A stretch of DNA of 64,000 nt, from contig JAYWMQ010000003.1 of NCBI GenBank assembly GCA_035873375.1, positions 1-64,000 of the forward strand, read 5' to 3'. The translations under genes were made by a program, and so were the position numbers. Positions 35-59,735 of the stretch are shown here, piece by piece. The stretch's first letter is position 1, and each line of letters starts with the position of its first letter. This DNA comes from Nitrospirota bacterium. Its GTDB lineage: Bacteria; Nitrospirota; Thermodesulfovibrionia; Thermodesulfovibrionales; JdFR-85. The notes under the pieces were generated by a model that did not search any database, had not been told where the DNA came from, and saw nothing but the letters and a program-made list of their open reading frames with translations.

Positions 35-91
35 TTTACACCCTCCCTTACAATTATCCAATATTATACGTATTACGTATTTGCTGATATT

Positions 92-229
92 ATGCCCTAA
101 ATACGAAAAACAATATTTTTTCTTTATGAAATAATCAATTAAAATAATCAATTAGAGTTGCATATGTTTCTAACGTGTGCTATAGTGTAAGGAAATTTAG
201 GGAGAAACAAGTAGTTCGTATATTAATTG
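92..229 (+). other. attI-like site with cassette promoter, copy A
   Basis: This 138-bp segment runs from TGCCCTA to the recombination base G229, where the first cassette (TTATACC) begins. It is repeated at 3085-3207, and the similarity stops exactly at the same G. The inner end, TTCGTATATTAATTG, recurs a third time on the minus strand at 54992-55006. It contains a good promoter (158-186) and a ribosome-site-like AGGGAG near 199-204. The length difference from copy B comes from a duplicated AATAATCAATTA here. Role as attI is inferred from the junction position and the flanking cassettes. Confidence 0.7.
158..186 (+). promoter_or_regulatory. Pc-like cassette promoter, copy A
   Basis: TTGCAT (158-163), 17-base spacer, TATAGT (181-186) with a TG just upstream of the -10. 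It points into the cassettes, as an integron Pc promoter should. Confidence 0.6.
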
Positions 230-3084: not shown

Positions 3085-3207
3085 TGCCCTACGGAAAACA
3101 ATATTTTTTTCCTTATAAAATAATCGATTCGTAGAGTTGCATATGTTTCTAAAGTATGCTATATTGAAGGAAATTTGAGGAGGAATAAGTAGTTTGTATA
3201 TTAATTG
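3085..3207 (+). other. attI-like site with cassette promoter, copy B
   Basis: A 123-bp near-copy of 92-229, ending at the same crossover base (G3207) and followed by cassette 4. It has a stronger ribosome site (GAGGAGG, about 3177-3183) and a TTG eight to ten bases further on that opens a very short frame ending at the junction. Two attI copies in direct orientation are unusual and imply duplication or recombination between platforms. Confidence 0.65.
3137..3165 (+). promoter_or_regulatory. Pc-like cassette promoter, copy B
   Basis: TTGCAT (3137-3142), 17-base spacer, TATATT (3160-3165). Same geometry as copy A, with a better -10. Confidence 0.6.
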
Positions 3208-10735: not shown

Positions 10736-12190
10736 TTACCAGCTTGAATCGAAGGAAAATTCGAAGACTATATTATCTGTATTATTTCCTGAAATATGCC
10801 CGGAATCCCTTACCTTTTCGTATCCGCCTTTTAGAGACAGATCCACTCTCTCTGAAACCTTCTGTCTCAAGGCAAGGACAAACTCCTGACTCACCTCGGG
10901 ATTCTTTCCGGATATGCCCTTTCTCTCCCGGTCATAGTAAAATGAATACTTTGTACTCCCTGTCCCGTAAAGGGATGTGCCTACAAAAAGGTCTTCTGCA
11001 TCACTGCCCATATGATGGCCGATGAGCCTTCCCTTGTATGTATAGCCGCTTCTGTAAGTATTATGGTGGTAGAGTATTTTCTGGGTTTGTGCATATTCTC
11101 CCCTCAGATCAATTGTATCAAGATTAAATATCCTCGGCAGGTATATACCGGCAAGATATCCTCCTTTAATCGTTATGTTCCTTGATATGTCCTCAGCCGC
11201 TATCTCTCCATACAGTTGTAATGGCTGCCATTTAAAGGGGAGGGTTATTTTTATATCAGCCCCAACGTGCTGGTCATTTGGTACATCGGGGCCGTCATTC
11301 GGTATATCGTATCCGTTCACGAATGTCATTGTCTTATACCAGTTGTTAAAGTCTTCATCTTCGCCCCTTCCACCTAAAAAAAACGTCCTCTGAACCCCTA
11401 ACTCAAAATATGAGACAGGCTTGAGATTAAAACGGAGTCCCCAGAAATAAGGTTCCGGAAAGGCTCTGTCGGACTCAAGCTTTGTCAAAAAGGTGGTAAA
11501 TTTAAAAGGACCGATGTATTTAAATATCCACGGCAGGAGTAGGGGGTGCGGATTGGAGAGTTTTATCATTGTCATTGGCTCTGGATTGTTTGAAAAAAGC
11601 ATGGCTCCATGATTCCCGGGCCCCCACCACTGTGAATCCTTGCCAATCTCAAGCTCCAATCCCAGAAAATCGAGGGTGCCGTAAATTCTCTTCATTGTCA
11701 GGTCTGTCTCGTCATCAGAGTTCCTGACCTCGGGATTTATATAGAAAGAAAAGCCCCCGACTTCAACATCCGAGGAAAATCCGAATCTGAAATTGGAGCC
11801 TTTTTTGTAGAGGTCACCATCGTTGTTGTAGTTAAGAACTTTTGAGGTGTTGCTGGAATATACATATTTACCATACAGGGTATCCAGGGGTTTAATGGAT
11901 CGTGCACCCTCTATCTGTGCTCTGAACTTTTCTTTGAGGAATTCTATAATTTGCCGGATATGGGGACTTCTGCCTTCGGAATTCCTTTCTGCCTCGAGTA
12001 TTAGCCTTGCCACCTCTTTACGGCTTAACGGTTTTGTTGTCATAATTCCGCTCCGTATCAGGCCTTCTGCCTCAAGGCGTAACAGCAGGTCATATGTTAT
12101 GTTCTCAACTACAACATTGGTGGAGGCAACTGTATCGGGGGCAAATAACAAGAGGCTTATGACTATTAACAGAAAACCAAGACGCCGCAA
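10736..12190 (-). CDS. Wzi-like outer-membrane capsule assembly protein
   Basis: 484 residues with a Sec signal peptide (MRRLGFLLIVISLLLFAPDTVAS). The rest has alternating beta-strand character with aromatic ends and terminates in FEFSFDSSW, typical of an outer-membrane beta-barrel. The segment GKDSQWWGPGNHGAMLFSNN is diagnostic of the Wzi capsule assembly family, in which Wzi anchors surface polysaccharide. No other capsule genes are nearby. It converges on the antiporter gene. Confidence 0.75.
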   Translation of the reverse strand: MRRLGFLLIVISLLLFAPDTVASTNVVVENITYDLLLRLEAEGLIRSGIMTTKPLSRKEVARLILEAERNSEGRSPHIRQIIEFLKEKFRAQIEGARSIKPLDTLYGKYVYSSNTSKVLNYNNDGDLYKKGSNFRFGFSSDVEVGGFSFYINPEVRNSDDETDLTMKRIYGTLDFLGLELEIGKDSQWWGPGNHGAMLFSNNPEPMTMIKLSNPHPLLLPWIFKYIGPFKFTTFLTKLESDRAFPEPYFWGLRFNLKPVSYFELGVQRTFFLGGRGEDEDFNNWYKTMTFVNGYDIPNDGPDVPNDQHVGADIKITLPFKWQPLQLYGEIAAEDISRNITIKGGYLAGIYLPRIFNLDTIDLRGEYAQTQKILYHHNTYRSGYTYKGRLIGHHMGSDAEDLFVGTSLYGTGSTKYSFYYDRERKGISGKNPEVSQEFVLALRQKVSERVDLSLKGGYEKVRDSGHISGNNTDNIVFEFSFDSSW

Positions 12191-12492
12191 TTGGAACTCC
12201 GGTATATACAGTGAATTGAAGAGAGCATTCTGTAAACTGGACCAGACGCTCTTTTATCTCTGGGTTCAGGGCCAACTTATCTTTAGTATAATAGCTTATT
12301 TGCCTGTAAAAGACAAGATTCCGGCGAGGAGATCGTGACCGTCAAAAGGTTGCTTTGTAAAAGCTGAGTGGAGATAACCAGACCTGAAGAGAGACCGGGG
12401 ACTGAATTCCCGGCCTGTCCTGGATATGGTTCGGCAATTCCGCTGCTTATTATACTGTTGACAAGACGTTCAATCTGTGCTAAAAAGAGAGT
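12191..12492. other. Intergenic region between wzi-like and nifU genes
   Basis: Divergent promoter region of 302 bp. On the plus strand TTCAGG (12264-12269), 17 bases, TATAAT (12287-12292) is a possible promoter for the nifU operon. I see no regulator site I can name. Confidence 0.4.
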
Positions 12493-13326: not shown

Positions 13327-14525
13327 GTGTAATCTATCTTGACAACAATGCAACTACCGCCATAGCCCCCGAGGTCCTGGAAGAGATGTCCCCGTACCTC
13401 AGGGATCTATATGGAAACCCTTCGAGCATGCATACATTCGGCGGGCAGGTCCGCAGAAAGATTGAAGAGGCAAGGGCGAGGGTGGCGGCCCTGATCGGTG
13501 CTGAGGCAGATGAGATCGTCTTTACAAGCTGCGGTACGGAGAGCGACAACACTGCTGTAATGAGCGCTGTCGAGACATATCCCTACAGAAGACATGTAAT
13601 CACAACAAGGGTGGAGCACCCGGCAGTACTGAATTTCGCAAAACACCTGGCAAGAAAGGGTTTCCGCGTTACGTTCCTTCCTGTAGACAAATTCGGACGA
13701 CTCGATATGGAGGCATTTTCCGGGGCACTTGACGATGATACCGCGATTGTCTCGATAATGTATGCAAATAACGAGACAGGTGTTATATTCCCGATACCCC
13801 GGTTAGGGGAGCTGTTGCGGGAAAGGAAGATACTCTTTCACACAGATGCTGTCCAGGCAGTGGGGAAGGTCCCCATAAATGTAAGAGAGCTTCCGGTTGA
13901 CATGCTTTCGCTCTCCGGCCATAAGCTGCATGCCCCGAAAGGGGTGGGTGCGCTTTATGTGAGAAAGGGCACCAGGTTTTATCCTTATATAATCGGCGGG
14001 CATCAGGAGCGCGGAAGGAGGGCCGGGACAGAGAATGTGGCCTCCATAATCGGGCTTGGCAGGGCTTGTGAGCTTGCAATGGAGACTCTCGATAAAGAGG
14101 CAGAGTATCTGGGCAGGCTGAGGGATAAACTCGAAAGGTCCCTGCTTGAGCGTTGTCCTGATGCCCTGGTCAATGGGGACACTGAACACCGTCTGCCGAA
14201 TACAACGAATATCAGCTTTCAGTATGTTGAGGGCGAGGCCATCCTGCTGAGGCTCAACGAATACGGCATATGTGCCTCCTCCGGGTCTGCATGTACCTCC
14301 GGCTCCCTGCAGCCAAGCCATGTGCTGCGGGCAATGGGTGTGCCTTTTACTGCAATACACGGCTCCGTAAGATTCTCACTGAGCCGTTACAACACAGAGG
14401 CTGAAATTGATAGGGTCATCGAGACAGTGCCGTCTGTCATAAAAGAACTGAGGGCTCTTTCGCCGTACGGCAGAGAAGGACTTATAATAAATGCTTCTTC
14501 AGGAGGGCTTCATGGCAAAGGTTAA
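13323..14525 (+). CDS. nifS: Cysteine desulfurase NifS
   Basis: 400 residues, class V aminotransferase fold. The PLP lysine is K201 in SGHKLHAPKG, H99 (VEHPAV) stacks on the cofactor, and catalytic C324 lies in SSGSACTSG on the mobile loop. It converts cysteine to alanine and delivers persulfide sulfur to NifU. The start ATG overlaps the nifU stop. The 3' end runs 14 bases into the nuclease gene. Confidence 0.93.
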   Translation: MSVIYLDNNATTAIAPEVLEEMSPYLRDLYGNPSSMHTFGGQVRRKIEEARARVAALIGAEADEIVFTSCGTESDNTAVMSAVETYPYRRHVITTRVEHPAVLNFAKHLARKGFRVTFLPVDKFGRLDMEAFSGALDDDTAIVSIMYANNETGVIFPIPRLGELLRERKILFHTDAVQAVGKVPINVRELPVDMLSLSGHKLHAPKGVGALYVRKGTRFYPYIIGGHQERGRRAGTENVASIIGLGRACELAMETLDKEAEYLGRLRDKLERSLLERCPDALVNGDTEHRLPNTTNISFQYVEGEAILLRLNEYGICASSGSACTSGSLQPSHVLRAMGVPFTAIHGSVRFSLSRYNTEAEIDRVIETVPSVIKELRALSPYGREGLIINASSGGLHGKG

Positions 14526-51937: not shown

Positions 51938-53392
51938 ATGCTGACTCTCTTAAATGAAATCTGGCCTCATATTGCCGGAGGGCTTACCCTGCTTGTCACG
52001 GTTGTGGCTTCGGGTCATGCCGTCTTGCACAAGCGGGATGCACGTTCGGCAGTAGCATGGGTGGGGGTGATCTGGCTGGTTCCTGTAGTCGGTGCCCTGC
52101 TCTATCTCCTCCTGGGGATTAACCGCATCAGGCGGCGTGCCAGGGCCTTACGTAGTGATCAGAGCCATCTGCCGTGCCACTCTCAGTGCTCGAGTAAATA
52201 TCAATGCAGGATTGACGCTGATCAGGCGCTCCAACAGCACGGGCAGTTCCTTTCCCTGTCCCGGCTGGTGGAAGGAATCGTGCAAAAACCCCTCCTGCAG
52301 GGTAACAGGATTACCCCTCTTGTCAATGGCGACACCGCATATCCTGTAATGCTCAGTGCCATCGAAGGGGCAGAGTCTTCCGTTACCCTTTCTACATACA
52401 TCTTTGACAACGACAAGGCAGGCAGGTTATTTCTCGACGCCCTTACCCGTGCTGTCAACCGTGGTGTGGATGTGCGGGTGCTTGTCGACGACGTTGGAGC
52501 ACGTTATTCATGGCCCCCGATGACACGTATACTGCAACGTGCAGGCATTACTGTTGCACGCTTTCTCCCAACCTCTCTCCCCTGGCGAATGCCGTATATC
52601 AATCTCAGGAACCACCGCAAGATACTTGTGGTAGATGGGAAAACAGGATTTACTGGGGGCATGAATATACGGGTGGGGCATATGCTGAAGGCGAACCCCG
52701 GGTATCCTGTACAGGACCTTCACTTTCATGTGGAGGGACCTGTTGTTGCACATCTGCAGGAGATCTTTGCCAAGGACTGGGCCTTCTGTACAGGGGAGAC
52801 CCTGGAGGGAGAAGATTGGTTTCCATGTATTGAACCAAAGGGCTCTGTAGTAGCACGCGGGATTCCGGATGGACCTGATGAGGATTATGAAAAACTGCTC
52901 TGGACCGTTCATGGTGCGCTTACCTGCGCAAGAAAATCCGTGCGGATCGTGACCCCATACTTTATTCCTGATTCCACCCTTACAACATCGCTGAACCTTG
53001 CTGCAATGCGCGGGGTGGATGTGGATATTATCCTCCCGCAGAAAAACAACCTGAGGATAGTCAAGTGGGCATCCACTGATCTGCTTCTGGAGTGCCTGGA
53101 GCACGGCTGCCGTGTCTGGCTGACCACACCCCTGTTTGATCACACAAAGCTGATGCTCGTGGATGACGTCTGGGGCCTGTTTGGCTCTGCAAACATAGAC
53201 ACCAGAAGCTTTCTGCTGAATTTTGAGTTCAATGTAGAGTGTTATGATCAGGGGTTGGTAGCGGAGATGAATTCACTCGTAGATACAAAGCTGAAGAATG
53301 CTCACCAGGTAACGCTGCAAGAGATAAGGAACCGGAGGCTTCCGATTAAATTACGCGACGGTATTGCACGGCTATTCTCACCGTATCTGTGA
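51938..53392 (+). CDS. cls: Cardiolipin synthase
   Basis: 484 residues. Two N-terminal membrane helices are followed by two phospholipase D HKD motifs (NHRKILVVDGKTGFTGGMNI and DHTKLMLVDDVWGLFGSANID). It condenses two phosphatidylglycerols to cardiolipin at the inner membrane, a lipid often raised in osmotic stress, in line with the K+ genes before it. A cassette insertion in the opposite direction begins just past its stop. Confidence 0.92.
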   Translation: MLTLLNEIWPHIAGGLTLLVTVVASGHAVLHKRDARSAVAWVGVIWLVPVVGALLYLLLGINRIRRRARALRSDQSHLPCHSQCSSKYQCRIDADQALQQHGQFLSLSRLVEGIVQKPLLQGNRITPLVNGDTAYPVMLSAIEGAESSVTLSTYIFDNDKAGRLFLDALTRAVNRGVDVRVLVDDVGARYSWPPMTRILQRAGITVARFLPTSLPWRMPYINLRNHRKILVVDGKTGFTGGMNIRVGHMLKANPGYPVQDLHFHVEGPVVAHLQEIFAKDWAFCTGETLEGEDWFPCIEPKGSVVARGIPDGPDEDYEKLLWTVHGALTCARKSVRIVTPYFIPDSTLTTSLNLAAMRGVDVDIILPQKNNLRIVKWASTDLLLECLEHGCRVWLTTPLFDHTKLMLVDDVWGLFGSANIDTRSFLLNFEFNVECYDQGLVAEMNSLVDTKLKNAHQVTLQEIRNRRLPIKLRDGIARLFSPYL

Positions 53393-53421: not shown

Positions 53422-53559
53422 CAAACAACGTGGAATTCACCTGCCACGACCTGAGAAGCGACTAATTCTAAATACCGCTAAAACTTAAAACTTTGGTAGC
53501 AGTGCCATCGCTCAAAAAGGGACCGCTGTTCGTGGTCAGCATAAATGACTGGTTATGTC
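53422..53559 (-). repeat. attC site of the hicBA cassette
   Basis: Minus strand R'' TGACATAAC complements the cassette start (G plus TTATGTCA at 53994-53986) over nine bases and contains the hicA stop codon. The stem CTG-CCACGA/TCGTGG-CAG has an extra A on one side. The right core is G/TTGTTT at 53429/53428. Weaker than the other sites. Confidence 0.6.
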
Positions 53560-53726
53560 AGTTCTTTTATTATATGTTTTGCGAGACGCTCGTCTATTTC
53601 GTTATGTCTAGGAACAGGTTGCTTTTTTCCTGTTTTAGGATTTTTGTAAAGATCATGACGACTCCCGTGTCTGTGAAGTACACATCCTGCAGAAGTAATT
53701 TCCTTGATGAGGTCTTTTCTTTTCAA
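53553..53726 (-). CDS. hicA: HicA toxin
   Basis: 57 residues from TTG 53726 (MKRKDLIKEITSAGCVLHRH), then GSRHDLYKNPKTGKKQPVPR and HNEIDERLAKHIIKEL. This is the complete double-stranded-RNA-binding-like HicA fold with the catalytic His in GSRHD. It cleaves mRNA or blocks translation. It overlaps hicB by TTGA, giving translational coupling in the hicB-hicA order. It lies in a gene cassette together with its antitoxin. Confidence 0.85.
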   Translation of the reverse strand: MKRKDLIKEITSAGCVLHRHGSRHDLYKNPKTGKKQPVPRHNEIDERLAKHIIKELT

Positions 53727-53920
53727 ACAGCAAGGGTAAGTTCTTTTACCTTGTGTTTTTCAGGGACATCCTCCAAGGTCATAAGTATGTATGCATCCTT
53801 CATGTTTTCCTCAAGTTCTTCCAGTGTCTCGCCTTGCGTCATTATTTCAGGATGTTCGAGAAGCTTTCCCACCCAAAACTTTTCACCTTTCCAATAAACC
53901 ATTTTTAATTTGGTTTTCAT
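53723..53920 (-). CDS. hicB: HicB antitoxin
   Basis: 65 residues from ATG 53920 after GAGGTG. The partial RNase-H-like HicB core is clear (YWKGEKFWVGKLLEHPEIMT, QGETLEELEENMKDAY). It lacks a C-terminal DNA-binding domain, so autoregulation may be absent or rely on the complex. It neutralises HicA. Confidence 0.85.
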   Translation of the reverse strand: MKTKLKMVYWKGEKFWVGKLLEHPEIMTQGETLEELEENMKDAYILMTLEDVPEKHKVKELTLAV

Positions 53921-53987
53921 TTTTCACCTCAGATAACATTTCTTTATTTATAATAACATAAGTACTGATAGTTGCAATATATTTTTG

Positions 53988-54117
53988 ACATAACGACCGC
54001 ATTCAGGGGCTGGCGGGTTTACGGCAACCAACTTCGATAAACCAAAAAGTTAATTTGAAAGACTGAACTTCGAAAAACCGCACTGGTAGCCAGTCCCTTG
54101 CAATGCATTGTTGGCCT
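53988..54117 (-). repeat. attC site of the RES cassette
   Basis: Minus strand R'' AGGCCAAC (54117-54110) complements the cassette start (G54992 plus TTGGCCT) over eight bases. The stem GCATT-CA-GGG-CTGGC pairs with GCCAGCCCCTGAATGC, with extra G, A, A bases on one side. Right core GTTATGT (53994-53988). Confidence 0.72.
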
Positions 54118-54976
54118 AAAATATTCCTCCGATCTCTGTTGATGGAGACCATGTTATTACATCCTTTTCGACTTTACCTTTAAAGTCAGTTTCTATTGCC
54201 ATTGATACCAAATTATAGAAGGGATGGGCTCTAAATTTATGGATATGATTTGATACATGCTCTTTTTGAACCAGACGAACAATTCGGATGTCTTTTATTT
54301 CAATTTTTTTCCTTGCGGACTCAGGCTTTAAGGCAATATTATTTTTATTTGACTGCACCGATGGATATAACCAACCATCTGATTCATCGCTATGAAACCA
54401 AACTCTGCACATTGAAGAAGATATTTTATGAAGGTACTCTGTCCCTTTGCCAACAGGTTTTAAAAATTCTGACCGTACAAACTCACGAAGAATTTGATAC
54501 GACAACATGCTTTGATCATCATAGATAGGCTTATGATTCTCATCTGTTGTAATCAATTCCTTCGGAACAATTCTTTTTAAATTAAGTGGGTCTGTAACCC
54601 TATACTTGATTGTGTAAACTGGTTCACCAACTTGAATATTTAATTCCTCAAATGGCGTTTCTAAATTATCTGATACATATAATACCGGACTACACTTACT
54701 ATTACATCTACCCAAGGGGGTTTTTGAGGATGGGGGCTCCCAACATTCAGATACGTCTTTGAAAAGATATTCAAATTTTCTGATTCTCCAAAACTTGAAA
54801 GGTTGAGTTTCCGTTGTTGATACTGGATAAACTTCTAACGAATCTAAGAAATTGGATAATTCAGTATCAATTTCCGAATCTGACATTTTTCTTAAGTCAT
54901 GTTTTCTCCATTTTTCAATACATTCCATTACGGTATGTGGAGAAGGCAAAGTCCATTTTTTAGAATTATAAGTCAT
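54116..54976 (-). CDS. RES-domain protein
   Basis: About 286 residues from ATG 54976; the ATG at 54994 straddles the cassette junction and is unlikely to be native. The RES fold is seen in RIRKFEYLF, then GRCNSKCSPVLYVSDNLETP with FEEL, and WLYPSVQSNKNNIALKPE. RES toxins degrade NAD+ and are usually paired with a Xre antitoxin, but none is adjacent. A longer N-terminal region is unassigned. It is the only gene of its cassette (54991-53994) and its stop overlaps R''. Confidence 0.72.
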   Translation of the reverse strand: MTYNSKKWTLPSPHTVMECIEKWRKHDLRKMSDSEIDTELSNFLDSLEVYPVSTTETQPFKFWRIRKFEYLFKDVSECWEPPSSKTPLGRCNSKCSPVLYVSDNLETPFEELNIQVGEPVYTIKYRVTDPLNLKRIVPKELITTDENHKPIYDDQSMLSYQILREFVRSEFLKPVGKGTEYLHKISSSMCRVWFHSDESDGWLYPSVQSNKNNIALKPESARKKIEIKDIRIVRLVQKEHVSNHIHKFRAHPFYNLVSMAIETDFKGKVEKDVITWSPSTEIGGIF

Positions 54977-54991
54977 TTTTCCAAAGGCCAA

Positions 54992-55028
54992 CATTTAATA
55001 TACGAATTTCCAGTTTCCCTGTTTAATG
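54992..55028 (-). other. attI-like remnant, copy C (inverted)
   Basis: On the minus strand the segment ends ..AAATTCGTATATTAAATG at the RES cassette start. The last 15 bases match attI copy A (TTCGTATATTAATTG) with one change, and AGGGA-AAC upstream also aligns. The promoter part is cut off by the IS66 fragment beginning at 55029. Confidence 0.6.
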
Positions 55029-55245
55029 GTAAGCGTCAAATAAAGCCCATCTTCCCAGGAAGAGGTAAGAGATGCCATGATAAGCCAATCAAAAATAAGG
55101 AGGCGAGTCATGGCAAAGAAAGGGTCAAGAGAGGGAGAGAAAGAGGAATACTGGAAGGGGCATATACGGGAGTGGAGCAGAGGGGGAATGAGTCAGGCAG
55201 AGTATTGCCGACGGCAGAAACTGAGCCCGAAATCATTTACATACT
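55029..55245 (+). mobile_element. IS66 end fragment with start of tnpA
   Basis: Begins with the same terminal sequence (GTAAGCGTCAAATAAAGCCC) as the full element ending at 59735, in inverse orientation. It covers the leader and about 45 codons of tnpA (ATG 55110, MAKKGSREGEKEEYW). It stops at CATACT, where the IS1380 element begins. Confidence 0.8.
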
Positions 55246-55248
55246 AGG

Positions 55249-57123
55249 CCTAAAACAAGCGAGGTTTTTCTATGAGTTGCATAGAGCCCCATCTTATCCA
55301 TTGACGAATTACATTTTTGCCTGTTAATCTCTCGAAGCGCTGATTTAATAGTATGAATGCCTCGATCAGTCCCATCATAAAACCTAAAACACATTCTTAC
55401 CGGTAAAACTTCCATGATTCCGGCGCACCTTTTCCGCTTTCATCTTTTCTTGTTTTAACTTTCTGCTTAAATCGTATCTTCTTTAAGTAATCGCTAATTT
55501 TAATCGTCGTATTCGCTCCCATGTTGCAAAGAAATCTTTCAGCCATGCATTATACCCAAGTATTCGATATACTATCTTTCGTCCTGTCCTGATTATCTGA
55601 GCAGGCAGCAAAATCAGCGTATATAGAAACCGGCGGAACTCCATCTTTATTACTTCAGTCCCACGAACTTTATCGGGCATCAATAATCCAAACCATGACT
55701 TCAGATTCCACGCCAATGCAGCCATCACCATATACGCCCAGTTGCTTTCCAGATCCCGCACCGGCACTCTCATAGCATTTACTCCGTTTTTTAACTGCTC
55801 CACTACATTCTCCTGATCGCAGCGTCCATTTGCTAATCTCACCACCTCTGCTGCCGTCAAATCTCTGCGCGTTGTGATATAGAAAAAATACCTGATATCG
55901 TCAAATAGTACTTCCTCTCCTTTTTCAACACTCAGGTTCTTTCTTATTACCACCATCCGGTATGTCTGCCTGCATTTGCCCGGCCTATACTCAAATTCCG
56001 ATACCTCTTCACCCTTCAACTTTATGTTCTTGAATTCACGCTTCCTCACTATCTCCTCTTTGACATTCTCCGGCTTCAAACGCTCCTGTGTCTGTACCTC
56101 GTATTTAGGTTTCCGCTTCAATGCCGTCCAATCCTCCTCAGAAACCTCTTCTGCTCGTTTTACCAATCCTTTGCGTGCATCCATTCCGAATACAAAATCT
56201 ACTCTCTCTGCCCACCGGTCAAAATTGCTCGTCAATGAAAAATCAGTGTCTCCACGTAAACAGATCTTCTTCGCATAGGGCTTCACTAAATCTATTGCAC
56301 GATCAATCCACTCCGTCGCTCCCTGGTGACTTGCTGCATTCCCCGACCGGTTTACTATGTACAACACCTCTTTTGTGTTGGCTAACGAAACAATCAGGGG
56401 CGCATATCCCCATATCCCCTTGTACGATATGTCCATTCCCTTCTTGCACTCCCCCAGCGTCCCGGCTATCGTCCCATCTATATCTATCAGCCCCTCCTCC
56501 AGTCTTCCTTTTCCACCCTCTGCCCACACTCGCTGCCGCGTCCTGTTTATACTTTCCATCAGTATCCCTATGTCTTCCCTGTCAAATCGACGTGTGAAAT
56601 CTCCCGCTGTCGTCGGGTCAGGTATGCGCTGCGTTCCCAATGCATTCAGAAACACTTCGTCTTTCCGTCTCAACTCTATATCCTCCAGACGCATACCCCC
56701 GACCAATATGTTATACGCTATGTTCAATACATGATCAGATTCATGATAGGGTATATGTACCTTTAGTAATTTTAGATTTGCATTAATCTCTTTCTCTAAT
56801 CCTATCCTTTTTACCATCTGGTGGAACACTCCTATTCCCCCGCAACTGATCGCCTGCGTCTTCTCGCTCATCTCGTAATGTATGTTGCTGCCCTTCATTA
56901 TCGGCTCCGCCTGTTCCTTCCACTGCCTCTTCCCCAATCGTCCCTCTATTCTCCGTTTACTTTTCCTCATTATTTTGCTATACTTGTTTTTAGATATTTT
57001 GCTCACTTGAAATGCCCCTTTCTTTGGTTATTGCGCTTCCCACGCTTCTTATTTTAACCAATAGATTCGGGGCATTTCTACCTCTTACTGTTTGTTTTTT
57101 GTTTTATCGCGCTTCTTTAAGGG
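55249..57123 (-). mobile_element. IS1380-family insertion sequence
   Basis: About 1.9 kb with one intact transposase. Imperfect terminal repeats: GCCTAAAACAAGCGAGG at the left, CCCTTAAAGAAGCGCGA (reverse strand) at the right. Flanking CTAG and TTAG are similar but not identical, so a target duplication is unproven. Confidence 0.75.
55483..57006 (-). CDS. IS1380 transposase
   Basis: 507 residues, DDE type. Catalytic candidates are D in [11 protein letters not shown] in [10 protein letters not shown] and E in [16 protein letters not shown], the Y-(2)-R-like E region of the family. Basic N-terminus ([20 protein letters not shown]). Full length and uninterrupted, so probably active. Confidence 0.9.
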
Positions 57124-57333: not shown

Positions 57334-57359
57334 GTAAGCGTCAAATAAACCCCACGTGA

Positions 57360-58898
57360 TTAACCAAGAAGGACGATGGAGCCACGATTAACGTACTGGG
57401 GCAGAAGAGCCCTGTAATCTTCCTCTGTATTGGCACCGGGCAGTTCTTCAAAGAGGAAGCGCAAATAGGCATAAGGCTCCAGGCCGTTGGCCTTGGCGGT
57501 CTCGATCAGGCTGTAGATAGCGGCACTTGCCTCAGCACCCCGTGGATGACCCGAGAATAGCCAGTTCTTGCGGCCTACCACAAACGGCCGGATGGCATTC
57601 TCCGCAATATTGTTGTCTGGACGAAGTCTGCCGTCATCAAGATAACGCACCAGATTGTCCCACCGTTTAACCGTATACCCTATCGCCTTGCCAAGCAGCC
57701 CCCTGGGAGGTGTATATTGCATACGCTTGTCCAGCCATTGCTTAAACTCTTCAAGTACAGGCATTGCCTTCTTCTGCCGAAGCTCATAAACCTCCTCCGC
57801 ACCCATATCAGCATCTGCCGCCTCCGCCTCTATCTGATAAAGCTTCCCTATATAACTCAGCGCTACATTAGCACTGCCCGTCTTACCCTTCTTCATGGCT
57901 CGCGTTACATCCACGAACTTTCTCCGGGCATGTGCCCAGCATCCTACATGCTCTATTTCAGGGTTTTCATCAAAGAAATTATAGCCGGAATATCCATCCG
58001 TTTGTGCATATCCACGATAGTCGGCCAGAAATTCTTTAGCCACATCTCCGTATCTTCCCGGATGATATTGATATATCACTCCAGGTCTGCCTCGTACTCC
58101 ACCTAAAAACACCCACATGTATGATTTGCTCTTATTTGCCCGCCCCGGCTCCTTCATAACCTGTACCGTCGTTTCATCTATGTTTACCACAGGTCCCTTT
58201 ATTATCTCTTCTCTCAGTAACGATATCAACGGCTTGCATCGTTTGCCGACCTGTATTGCCCAATTGGACATCGTTGCTCTCGATATTTCAACCCCTATCC
58301 GCCTGAACTTCTTCTCCTGACGGTAAAAAGGCATTGCATCTGCAAATTTCGATATCAGGATATGTGACAGAAGCCCAGGAGTCACTATACCCTGCGGGAT
58401 TATCTGCGCCGGCAGTTTCGCCGTCTTCACTGCTCCTTCTTCACTTTCCAATCCTTCACAGCTACGGCATGCATATTTGTAACGTATATGACGTATTACC
58501 TTGACCTTCGCCGGCACTATATCCAGCTTCTCCGATACCTCCTCACCTATCCGGCTCAGCCGACTGCCGCAACCACATTGTTTCTCCTCTTCTCTGAGAT
58601 CATGGATTATCTCTTCCCGCGGCAGTTCCTTTGGTAGTGGTTTGCGACCGGTCTTACGCGTATGCGCAGGAATGCTTATCTCTTTCTCTCTTACCTCTTC
58701 CTCTACTTCCTCGGCCTCGTCAAATAATGAACCCTGCTCTCCGTTAGCCTCTTCCCTCTTCTCCGTCTTGCGACCATACAGCAGGTCCTTTAACAGACGC
58801 ACCTGCTCTTGAAGCAGGCTTACCTCCGTGTTGAAATTTACAATTATTTCCTTTAATACTTCGGGGTTATCAGGTAGGTTGGCTACGTCTGAATTCAT
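57360..58898 (-). CDS. tnpC: IS66 transposase TnpC
   Basis: 512 residues with an N-terminal coiled coil (LKEIIVNFNTEVSLLQEQVRLLKDLLYGR). Next are an IS66 zinc-finger region (CGCGSRLSRIG, then YKYACRSCEG) and a DDE core (NIDETTVQV, AQTDGYSGYN, CWAHARRKFVD, PDNNIAENAIRPFVVGRKNWLFSGH). Intact. It moves the element together with TnpA and TnpB. Confidence 0.95.
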   Translation of the reverse strand: MNSDVANLPDNPEVLKEIIVNFNTEVSLLQEQVRLLKDLLYGRKTEKREEANGEQGSLFDEAEEVEEEVREKEISIPAHTRKTGRKPLPKELPREEIIHDLREEEKQCGCGSRLSRIGEEVSEKLDIVPAKVKVIRHIRYKYACRSCEGLESEEGAVKTAKLPAQIIPQGIVTPGLLSHILISKFADAMPFYRQEKKFRRIGVEISRATMSNWAIQVGKRCKPLISLLREEIIKGPVVNIDETTVQVMKEPGRANKSKSYMWVFLGGVRGRPGVIYQYHPGRYGDVAKEFLADYRGYAQTDGYSGYNFFDENPEIEHVGCWAHARRKFVDVTRAMKKGKTGSANVALSYIGKLYQIEAEAADADMGAEEVYELRQKKAMPVLEEFKQWLDKRMQYTPPRGLLGKAIGYTVKRWDNLVRYLDDGRLRPDNNIAENAIRPFVVGRKNWLFSGHPRGAEASAAIYSLIETAKANGLEPYAYLRFLFEELPGANTEEDYRALLPQYVNRGSIVLLG

Positions 58899-58977
58899 GC
58901 TGTAATTATACCATAACTGCCTGTTTTATATGCATTTTAAATGCATATACCTGAATCAGTTTTGTAAATATTTGCCC

Positions 58978-59331
58978 TCAGATTACTCCCCTGTAACTCA
59001 GCCTGCCATGCCCCTTCATATTACTGACATCCAGTCCCTCCAACAGCCACATAAGTTCCCTCTGCTCCACTTCCATTACATCTTGCCTTGACTCCGGCCA
59101 GATAAACCTGTCCTTCTCCAACCGCTTCTGCCACAGACAGAATCCGTTCTGATCCCAGTACAGTATCTTTATCATGTTGCGCCTCTTATTTGAAAAGACG
59201 AACATATGCCCTGATAACGGATTTAACTCCATCTGGCTTTCCACCAGGATCGACAATCCGTTTATTGCCTTCCGCATATCCGTATTCCCTATCGCTATAT
59301 ACACTCTCAGCTTATCCCCATGCATCAGCAT
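58978..59331 (-). CDS. tnpB: IS66 accessory protein TnpB
   Basis: 117 residues, typical of IS66 Orf2: IAIGNTDMRKAINGLSILVE, HMFVFSNKRRNMIKILYWDQ, NGFCLWQKRLEKDRFIWP. Needed for transposition; the mechanism is unclear. The start overlaps the end of tnpA. Confidence 0.93.
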   Translation of the reverse strand: MLMHGDKLRVYIAIGNTDMRKAINGLSILVESQMELNPLSGHMFVFSNKRRNMIKILYWDQNGFCLWQKRLEKDRFIWPESRQDVMEVEQRELMWLLEGLDVSNMKGHGRLSYRGVI

Positions 59332-59654
59332 TGCACTTCCCTCAGTGTCCGCAGCACTTCCCCTAACACCTCCCGCTTAAACCCTTCCTTGATTTCTATT
59401 CGGTATTCATCTTTGCACAGCACTACTCCTGTTTGGCTTTCTGCAGGGATTTGGAGCGCTGGCTTTATCTGTATCGGTACAAATGAAACTGATGTTTTCT
59501 CCCTCAACTTCCTCTTCCAGTATGTAAATGATTTCGGGCTCAGTTTCTGCCGTCGGCAATACTCTGCCTGACTCATTCCCCCTCTGCTCCACTCCCGTAT
59601 ATGCCCCTTCCAGTATTCCTCTTTCTCTCCCTCTCTTGACCCTTTCTTTGCCAC
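59325..59654 (-). CDS. tnpA: IS66 accessory protein TnpA
   Basis: About 109 residues from GTG 59654 after AGGAGG; the fragment copy at 55.1 kb has ATG at this place. A helix-turn-helix-like segment is present (HIREWSRGGMSQAEYCRRQK, then LSPKSFTYWKRKLRE). Probably binds the element ends. Confidence 0.88.
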   Translation of the reverse strand: MAKKGSREGEKEEYWKGHIREWSRGGMSQAEYCRRQKLSPKSFTYWKRKLREKTSVSFVPIQIKPALQIPAESQTGVVLCKDEYRIEIKEGFKREVLGEVLRTLREVQC

Positions 59655-59735
59655 GACTCGCCTCCTTATTTTTGATTGGCTTATCATGGCATCTCTTACC
59701 TCTTCCTGGGAAGATGGGCTTTATTTGACGCTTAC

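Follow-up and report, generated by a model that had tools for sequence, protein, structure and literature searches.

RES and hicBA gene cassettes at a putative integron attI site split by IS66 in a Nitrospirota genome with dispersed attI sites

On sequence grounds, the RES gene and the hicBA pair next to a cls-like gene are two integron cassettes, bounded by attC sites with R″/R′ boxes, an L stem and extrahelical bases, and they adjoin a real attI site split by IS66. This site very probably belongs to an attI family termed here type II, was later split by IS66 and has its promoter half on a second contig, C21. The window analysed comprises the first 64,000 bases of contig C3 (G000:C3:1-64000) of a 2.67-Mb draft genome (63 contigs, 99.3% complete). 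The features of the window are collected in Table 1.

Table 1. Features of the window that bear on the cassettes and their attI site
Feature	Position	Strand	Basis or remark
Type-I attI/promoter A	63..229	+	TTGCAT-N17-TATAGT; relic of the intI start precedes and probably continues on C56
Type-I attI/promoter B	3089..3207	+	Copy of the type-I block
cls-like phospholipase D gene	51938..53392	+	Pfam PLDc_2, E 1.8e-42; converges on the cassettes and bounds the array
hicBA cassette attC	53423..53558	-	R″ ACATAAC, R′ GTTGTTT, stem TTTAT[G]CTG[A]CCACG
hicBA cassette	53429..53993	-	From the T after the first G^TT up to the next G; start/R″ pairing, 9 bases
hicA toxin gene	53553..53726	-	TTG start, overlaps hicB; Pfam HicA_toxin PF07927, E 5e-11
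hicB-like antitoxin gene (65 aa)	53723..53920	-	Position and linkage to hicA; sub-threshold UPF0150, E 0.07
RES cassette attC	53988..54116	-	R″ GGCCAAC, R′ GTTATGT, stem GCATT[G]CAAGGG[A]CTGGC
RES cassette	53994..54991	-	Start/R″ pairing, 8 bases
RES-domain gene	54116..54994	-	Pfam RES PF08808, E 4.9e-7
Type-II attI inner half (37 bases), ends ...GGAAATTCGTATATTAAATG^	54992..55028	-	41 bp, 88% identity to the intact C21 copy, E 1.5e-7
IS66 left-end fragment, cuts attI	55029..55245	+	217 bases, 99.5% identical to IS66 left end 59735-59519
DDE transposase gene beside the IS66 fragment	55483..57006	-	Pfam DDE_Tnp_1_4, E 9.5e-34
Full-length IS66 element	57334..59735	-	Flanks mismatched, no target duplication

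The RES cassette starts at G^TTGGCCT, where ^ marks the crossover, and its start GTTGGCCT (54992-54985, minus strand) complements the R″ box of its attC, AGGCCAAC, over 8 bases. The hicBA cassette starts at G^TTATGTCA, and its start GTTATGTCA is complementary to the R″ box TGACATAAC over 9 bases. Taken alone, such pairing of R″ with the start is no better than chance at several other junctions. The attC sites were located with a structural scan for the pattern AAC, stem, extrahelical base, 3 or 6 bp, extrahelical base, stem and, at the far end, GTT. Among the 3,348 AAC/GTT pairs of the 64-kb window, the RES attC ranks first (score 37.5) and the hicBA attC fourth (score 29.0), in agreement with the two minus-strand cassettes of the original prediction; second and third place go to the attCs of array A. 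In 40 Markov-shuffled windows, a mean of 0.25 matches scored at least 29 and none scored at least 37. The stem lengths were chosen after inspection of the RES and hicBA attCs, and the ranks are somewhat favourable because the scan was written after these sites had been seen. Applied unchanged to other loci, the scan finds attCs 3′ of attI on contigs C28, C19 and C21 and on a bacterium BMS3Bbin05 contig; it misses some attCs and gives a few matches in controls. An earlier scan that required pairing between R″ and R′ was dropped, since it failed on arrays, in which R′ belongs to the next cassette. In a duplex-energy test, the RES attC stands apart from the null (0.4% of null) and the hicBA attC only weakly so (3-4%), and the R′ box of the latter, GTTGTTT, deviates from GTTRRRY.

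RES and HicBA genes are common as mobile genes outside integrons, and the two loci might be ordinary toxin-antitoxin islands whose box pairing and hairpins arose by chance. That two attCs lie exactly where expected, with scores never or rarely reached in shuffled sequence, and that an attI stands at the predicted crossover make the chance of this negligible. At a threshold of 1e-15, no relative of the RES gene turns up among 230 further genomes of this class. The attI/cassette junction falls within the first ATG of RES, and the next in-frame ATG is at 54976, 18 bases inward. No empty site after cls was found in relatives: the contig of the closest relative breaks off within cls, and in the remaining relatives this region is different.

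Upstream of the RES cassette, the junction TTCGTATATTAAATG^ (55006-54992, minus strand) differs from attI A at one of 15 bases, and its position is exact, as had been proposed. The inner 12-mer occurs within one mismatch at 27 places in the genome; preceded by TTC or TTT in an attI context, it is found only in full attI copies and at the RES junction. A match on C36, GTATATTAATTG, was rejected as a chance occurrence that lacks a promoter. The best matches to the attI half at the RES site are on C21, C59, C6 and C5, all of type II. An integrase could also have inserted the cassettes at a non-attI, attG-like genomic site after cls, and targeting of genomic attG sites by IntI1 for cassette insertion is cited in PMC12901181. 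The RES junction, which would then be unrelated to attI, instead lies inside a 318-bp attI-family sequence, other members of which likewise precede cassettes, and insertion at an attG is very improbable here.

The attI half is bounded at 55029, 37 bases from the RES start, by an IS66 fragment with 99.5% identity over 217 bases to the left end of the full-length element; IS66 has thus taken away the promoter side. The first 8 bases of the attI half, CATTAAAC (55028-55021), directly abut the IS66 start. IS66 makes 8-bp target duplications, so a search was made across the genome for an IS66 end that adjoins CATTAAAC. The sole exact match is C21:14499-14513, where an IS66 right end has the orientation required; the duplication is thus at C3:55028-55021 and C21:14499-14506, and one of the 7 IS66 right-end flanks in the genome has it. 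Only this flank aligns to attI, with a score of 338 versus 16-23 for the others. Upstream of CATTAAAC and the IS66 right end on C21 is a predicted promoter, TTGAGA-N16-TATACT (consensus only), and C21 stops 131 bases past the right-end match. An intact copy of the C21 half, C21:12150-12452, lies 2 kb upstream on the same contig. When the C21 and C3 halves are joined at CATTAAAC, the product is 83.6% identical to this copy over 318 bp (E 2e-97). The alignment is unbroken across the join and ends at the crossover G^TTGG, directly after which the copies diverge. The RES locus therefore combines an attI with a promoter (by consensus only), homology that stops at G^TT, and an IS66 insertion with the 8-bp duplication at both ends. 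The promoter side had been described as cut off; it is cut from the cassettes but not lost, and the promoter half persists at the end of C21 with the same duplication.

As in other IS66-family insertions, the ends are GTAA and CATTAAAC is duplicated on both sides; unlike them, this insertion has its two ends on separate contigs, and the piece at the left end measures just 217 bases. The full-length IS66 of the window has no matching 8-bp flanks and thus probably arose when IS66 copies recombined with each other. With a draft assembly and identical or near-identical IS66 copies, the physical distance from C21 to the RES locus is uncertain. The separation of C21 and C3 could be an assembly artefact at the IS, and we infer that it is real in the chromosome.

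The original prediction held that the platform carrying attI A and attI B, at 192-229 and 3170-3207, had itself been duplicated, or carried by an IS, to the site beside cls. The match of 15 bases to A with one mismatch agrees with this, as does the dispersal of attI copies across the genome. The joined site nevertheless fits type II (83.6% over 318 bp), whereas its best match to type I is 60% over 185 bp, and the C21 half alone is no closer to type-I attI than shuffled sequences are (42 of 300 shuffles; nhmmer weak). In addition, no other place in the genome fully matches the 3′ flank common to A and B. A copy of the A/B platform is accordingly highly unlikely, and the site belongs instead with the type-II copies on C21, C59, C6 and C5.

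The attI remnant at the RES junction is real; it had been counted as the third and is one of about twelve sites in the genome, 7 of type I and 5 of type II, most with a cassette at G^TT. The type-I block is 130 bp long and consists of a predicted promoter, TTGCAT-N17-TATAGT, followed by GTAGTTCGTATATTAATTG^TT; it is located on C3 (A and B), C19, C2, C54, C28 and C12. Type II comprises the RES site, C21, C59, C6 and C5, with further copies in G002 and G005, two genomes of the same genus. Beyond the inner end (TTCGTATATTAA.TG) and where the -10 box lies, the two types have little in common. Pairwise identity, computed without the three bases that follow the G, falls at the crossover from 0.82 to 0.31 in type I and from 0.75 to 0.34 in type II, and GTT is present at the crossover in 10 of the 12 copies (absent from B and C6). 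The intact C21 attI is followed by a cassette with the start GTTGGGTATC and R″ box GATACCCAAC, complementary at 10 of 10 bases, and an attC score of 30 in the structural scan. In G002, attI^GTTAGCGG is accompanied by a matching R″ box. The type-II copies on C6 and in G005 occupy the same locus, with hicBA after both.

Several further observations concern these families. At the C6 attI (L118, ~1600-1780), a MITE-like insert with the ends AGTCTGTGTATAAA...TTTATACACAGACACT lies at the crossover; the orthologous locus G005:C136 is without the insert, and hicBA is directly 3′ of its attI. Two species of the genus have a type-I attI next to one shared chromosomal neighbour (L049, G000:C54; L092, G005:C102), but their first cassettes differ. 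Truncated promoter pieces (AAAATAATCAATTAGAGTTGCATATG...) that lack the attI core adjoin cassette-like genes in relatives (L097, G003:C83; L098, G001:C60). The attI core is also present in the MAG “Nitrospirae bacterium SZUA-77” and in bacterium BMS3Bbin05, where a type-I attI (BDTO01000089.1, L104) is followed by an array of at least 4 attCs with HEPN-like, MazE/PIN and DUF6602 genes. It was not found on viral contigs, and an exact copy in Clostridium sp. C2-6-12 was set aside as probably due to chance. An HNH protein of array A (1694-2380) resembles a restriction enzyme of phosphorothioated DNA (NF045808, 35.9 bits, below the cut-off).

No gene for an IntI-type tyrosine recombinase was found beside any attI of the genome: no protein exceeds the NCBIfam TIGR02249 cut-off for intact IntI in the 99.3% complete draft, and the two matches are XerC/XerD-like. 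IntI might sit in the missing part of the assembly. Relics of the gene are observed. Copy A and the C19 copy run into a divergent gene start, MSTKALPEFQEFLRARKI(I/V)PDRKVPFYAHWVS, an IntI-like amino end that soon breaks off, and the end of C56 is identical to the 121 bases at the start of the window, so C56 probably carries the intI relic of A. Full IntI is present in two relatives, G011 and G015; in a third, G001, the intI next to the type-I block has been disrupted by a deletion and by the insertion of two genes as a pair. The reverse strand upstream of both C21 type-II attIs (12190-12290 and 14270-14360; L110) reads ELQALLGH and EL*ALLGHKNL. This reading resembles the C-terminal box of IntI and may be what remains of an intI that has largely been deleted.

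Integrons normally gain a cassette when IntI recombines the cassette's folded attC with attI, which places that cassette behind Pc. At the RES locus, an IntI no longer found intact in the assembly would have joined folded attCs to the G^TT of a type-II attI, which would have placed RES and hicBA behind the upstream promoter TTGAGA-N16-TATACT. IntI presumably made these junctions and those at many other attI sites, and the promoter of the split attI is presumed to be active. IS66 would later have inserted inside attI, between the promoter and the crossover, with the 8-bp duplication. After further IS rearrangement, the cassette side would have come to lie beside cls, adjoining the 217-bp IS66 fragment, and the promoter side at the C21 end, behind the second, intact attI/cassette unit. 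The RES and hicBA cassettes are probably stranded, cut off from their original promoter.

Partial attI sequences offer another explanation of the RES junction. In class 1 and 2 integrons, some cassettes have an attI end of 14-18 bases in place of attC, one type retains 244 bases, and such pieces are moved by IntI1 (PMC12901181). The 15 bases at the junction could be such a delta-attI that closes a preceding cassette on its 3′ side, rather than part of a promoter-bearing platform. The left end of the type-II block on C21 resembles the 5′ arm of a G002 attC (32 bases, 88%), as if an attC and an attI had fused, which would suit this explanation. The re-joined element is ~300 bases long and includes a promoter, against the 15 bases of a delta-attI end, and a short partial attI is unlikely. 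A long delta-attI cassette is a possible arrival route of the ~300-base block at the type-II site preferred here.

The dispersed attI copies and the delta-attI cassettes are alike in that attI fragments of varied length with the same G^TT end occur away from intI, and the attI2 core AATAAAATGTTRRRY (PMC12901181) resembles TATTAAATGTTGGCC in the genome studied. Unlike delta-attI cassettes, the fragments here are 120-300 bases long, bear a promoter and are located at many chromosomal loci. The left ends vary among the copies and the right end is always the crossover. On C21, a methyltransferase unit ends in an attI block of ~300 bases with a promoter and has no attC of its own. The variable left ends, the fixed crossover end, the likeness to an attC arm and the known delta-attI cassettes favour spread as long delta-attI cassettes; tandem duplication and IS transport are other possible routes. 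Tentatively, and with considerable doubt, the attI and promoter block may be the spreading unit in this lineage: pieces of variable length ending at G^TT would have reached a dozen loci by copying, perhaps in the form of long delta-attI cassettes, allowing a single integrase to serve many dispersed docking sites, each with a promoter.

Integrons are viewed as one integrase with one attI. The arrangement described here is similar to a sedentary chromosomal integron in its attI with promoter, G^TT crossover, cassettes with folded attCs and divergent-strand intI relics (A/C56 and C19), and it differs in having about twelve attI/promoter sites of two families and no intact intI. Like a CALIN, which IntegronFinder 2.0 defines by default as at least 2 attC sites without intI, the RES/hicBA locus has two attCs in a row (by the structural scan) and no intI nearby; a CALIN is defined by attC only, whereas here the attI end remains and the site can be rebuilt. 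More than one intI is present in 22% of intI-bearing genomes, and K. pneumoniae strains with four complete integrons have been noted (IntegronFinder 2.0, PMC9024848). The attI sites outside class 1 are poorly described and are not searched by the standard tool (PMC9024848), so dispersed attI sites would be missed. No report of a comparable multi-attI genome was found in the open-access literature. The presence of two attI families at some twelve loci, the majority with a cassette at the crossover, indicates that attI can multiply and persist without its integrase. The dispersed attIs constitute natural variants, and their common inner 20 bases are a candidate binding core for the integrase.
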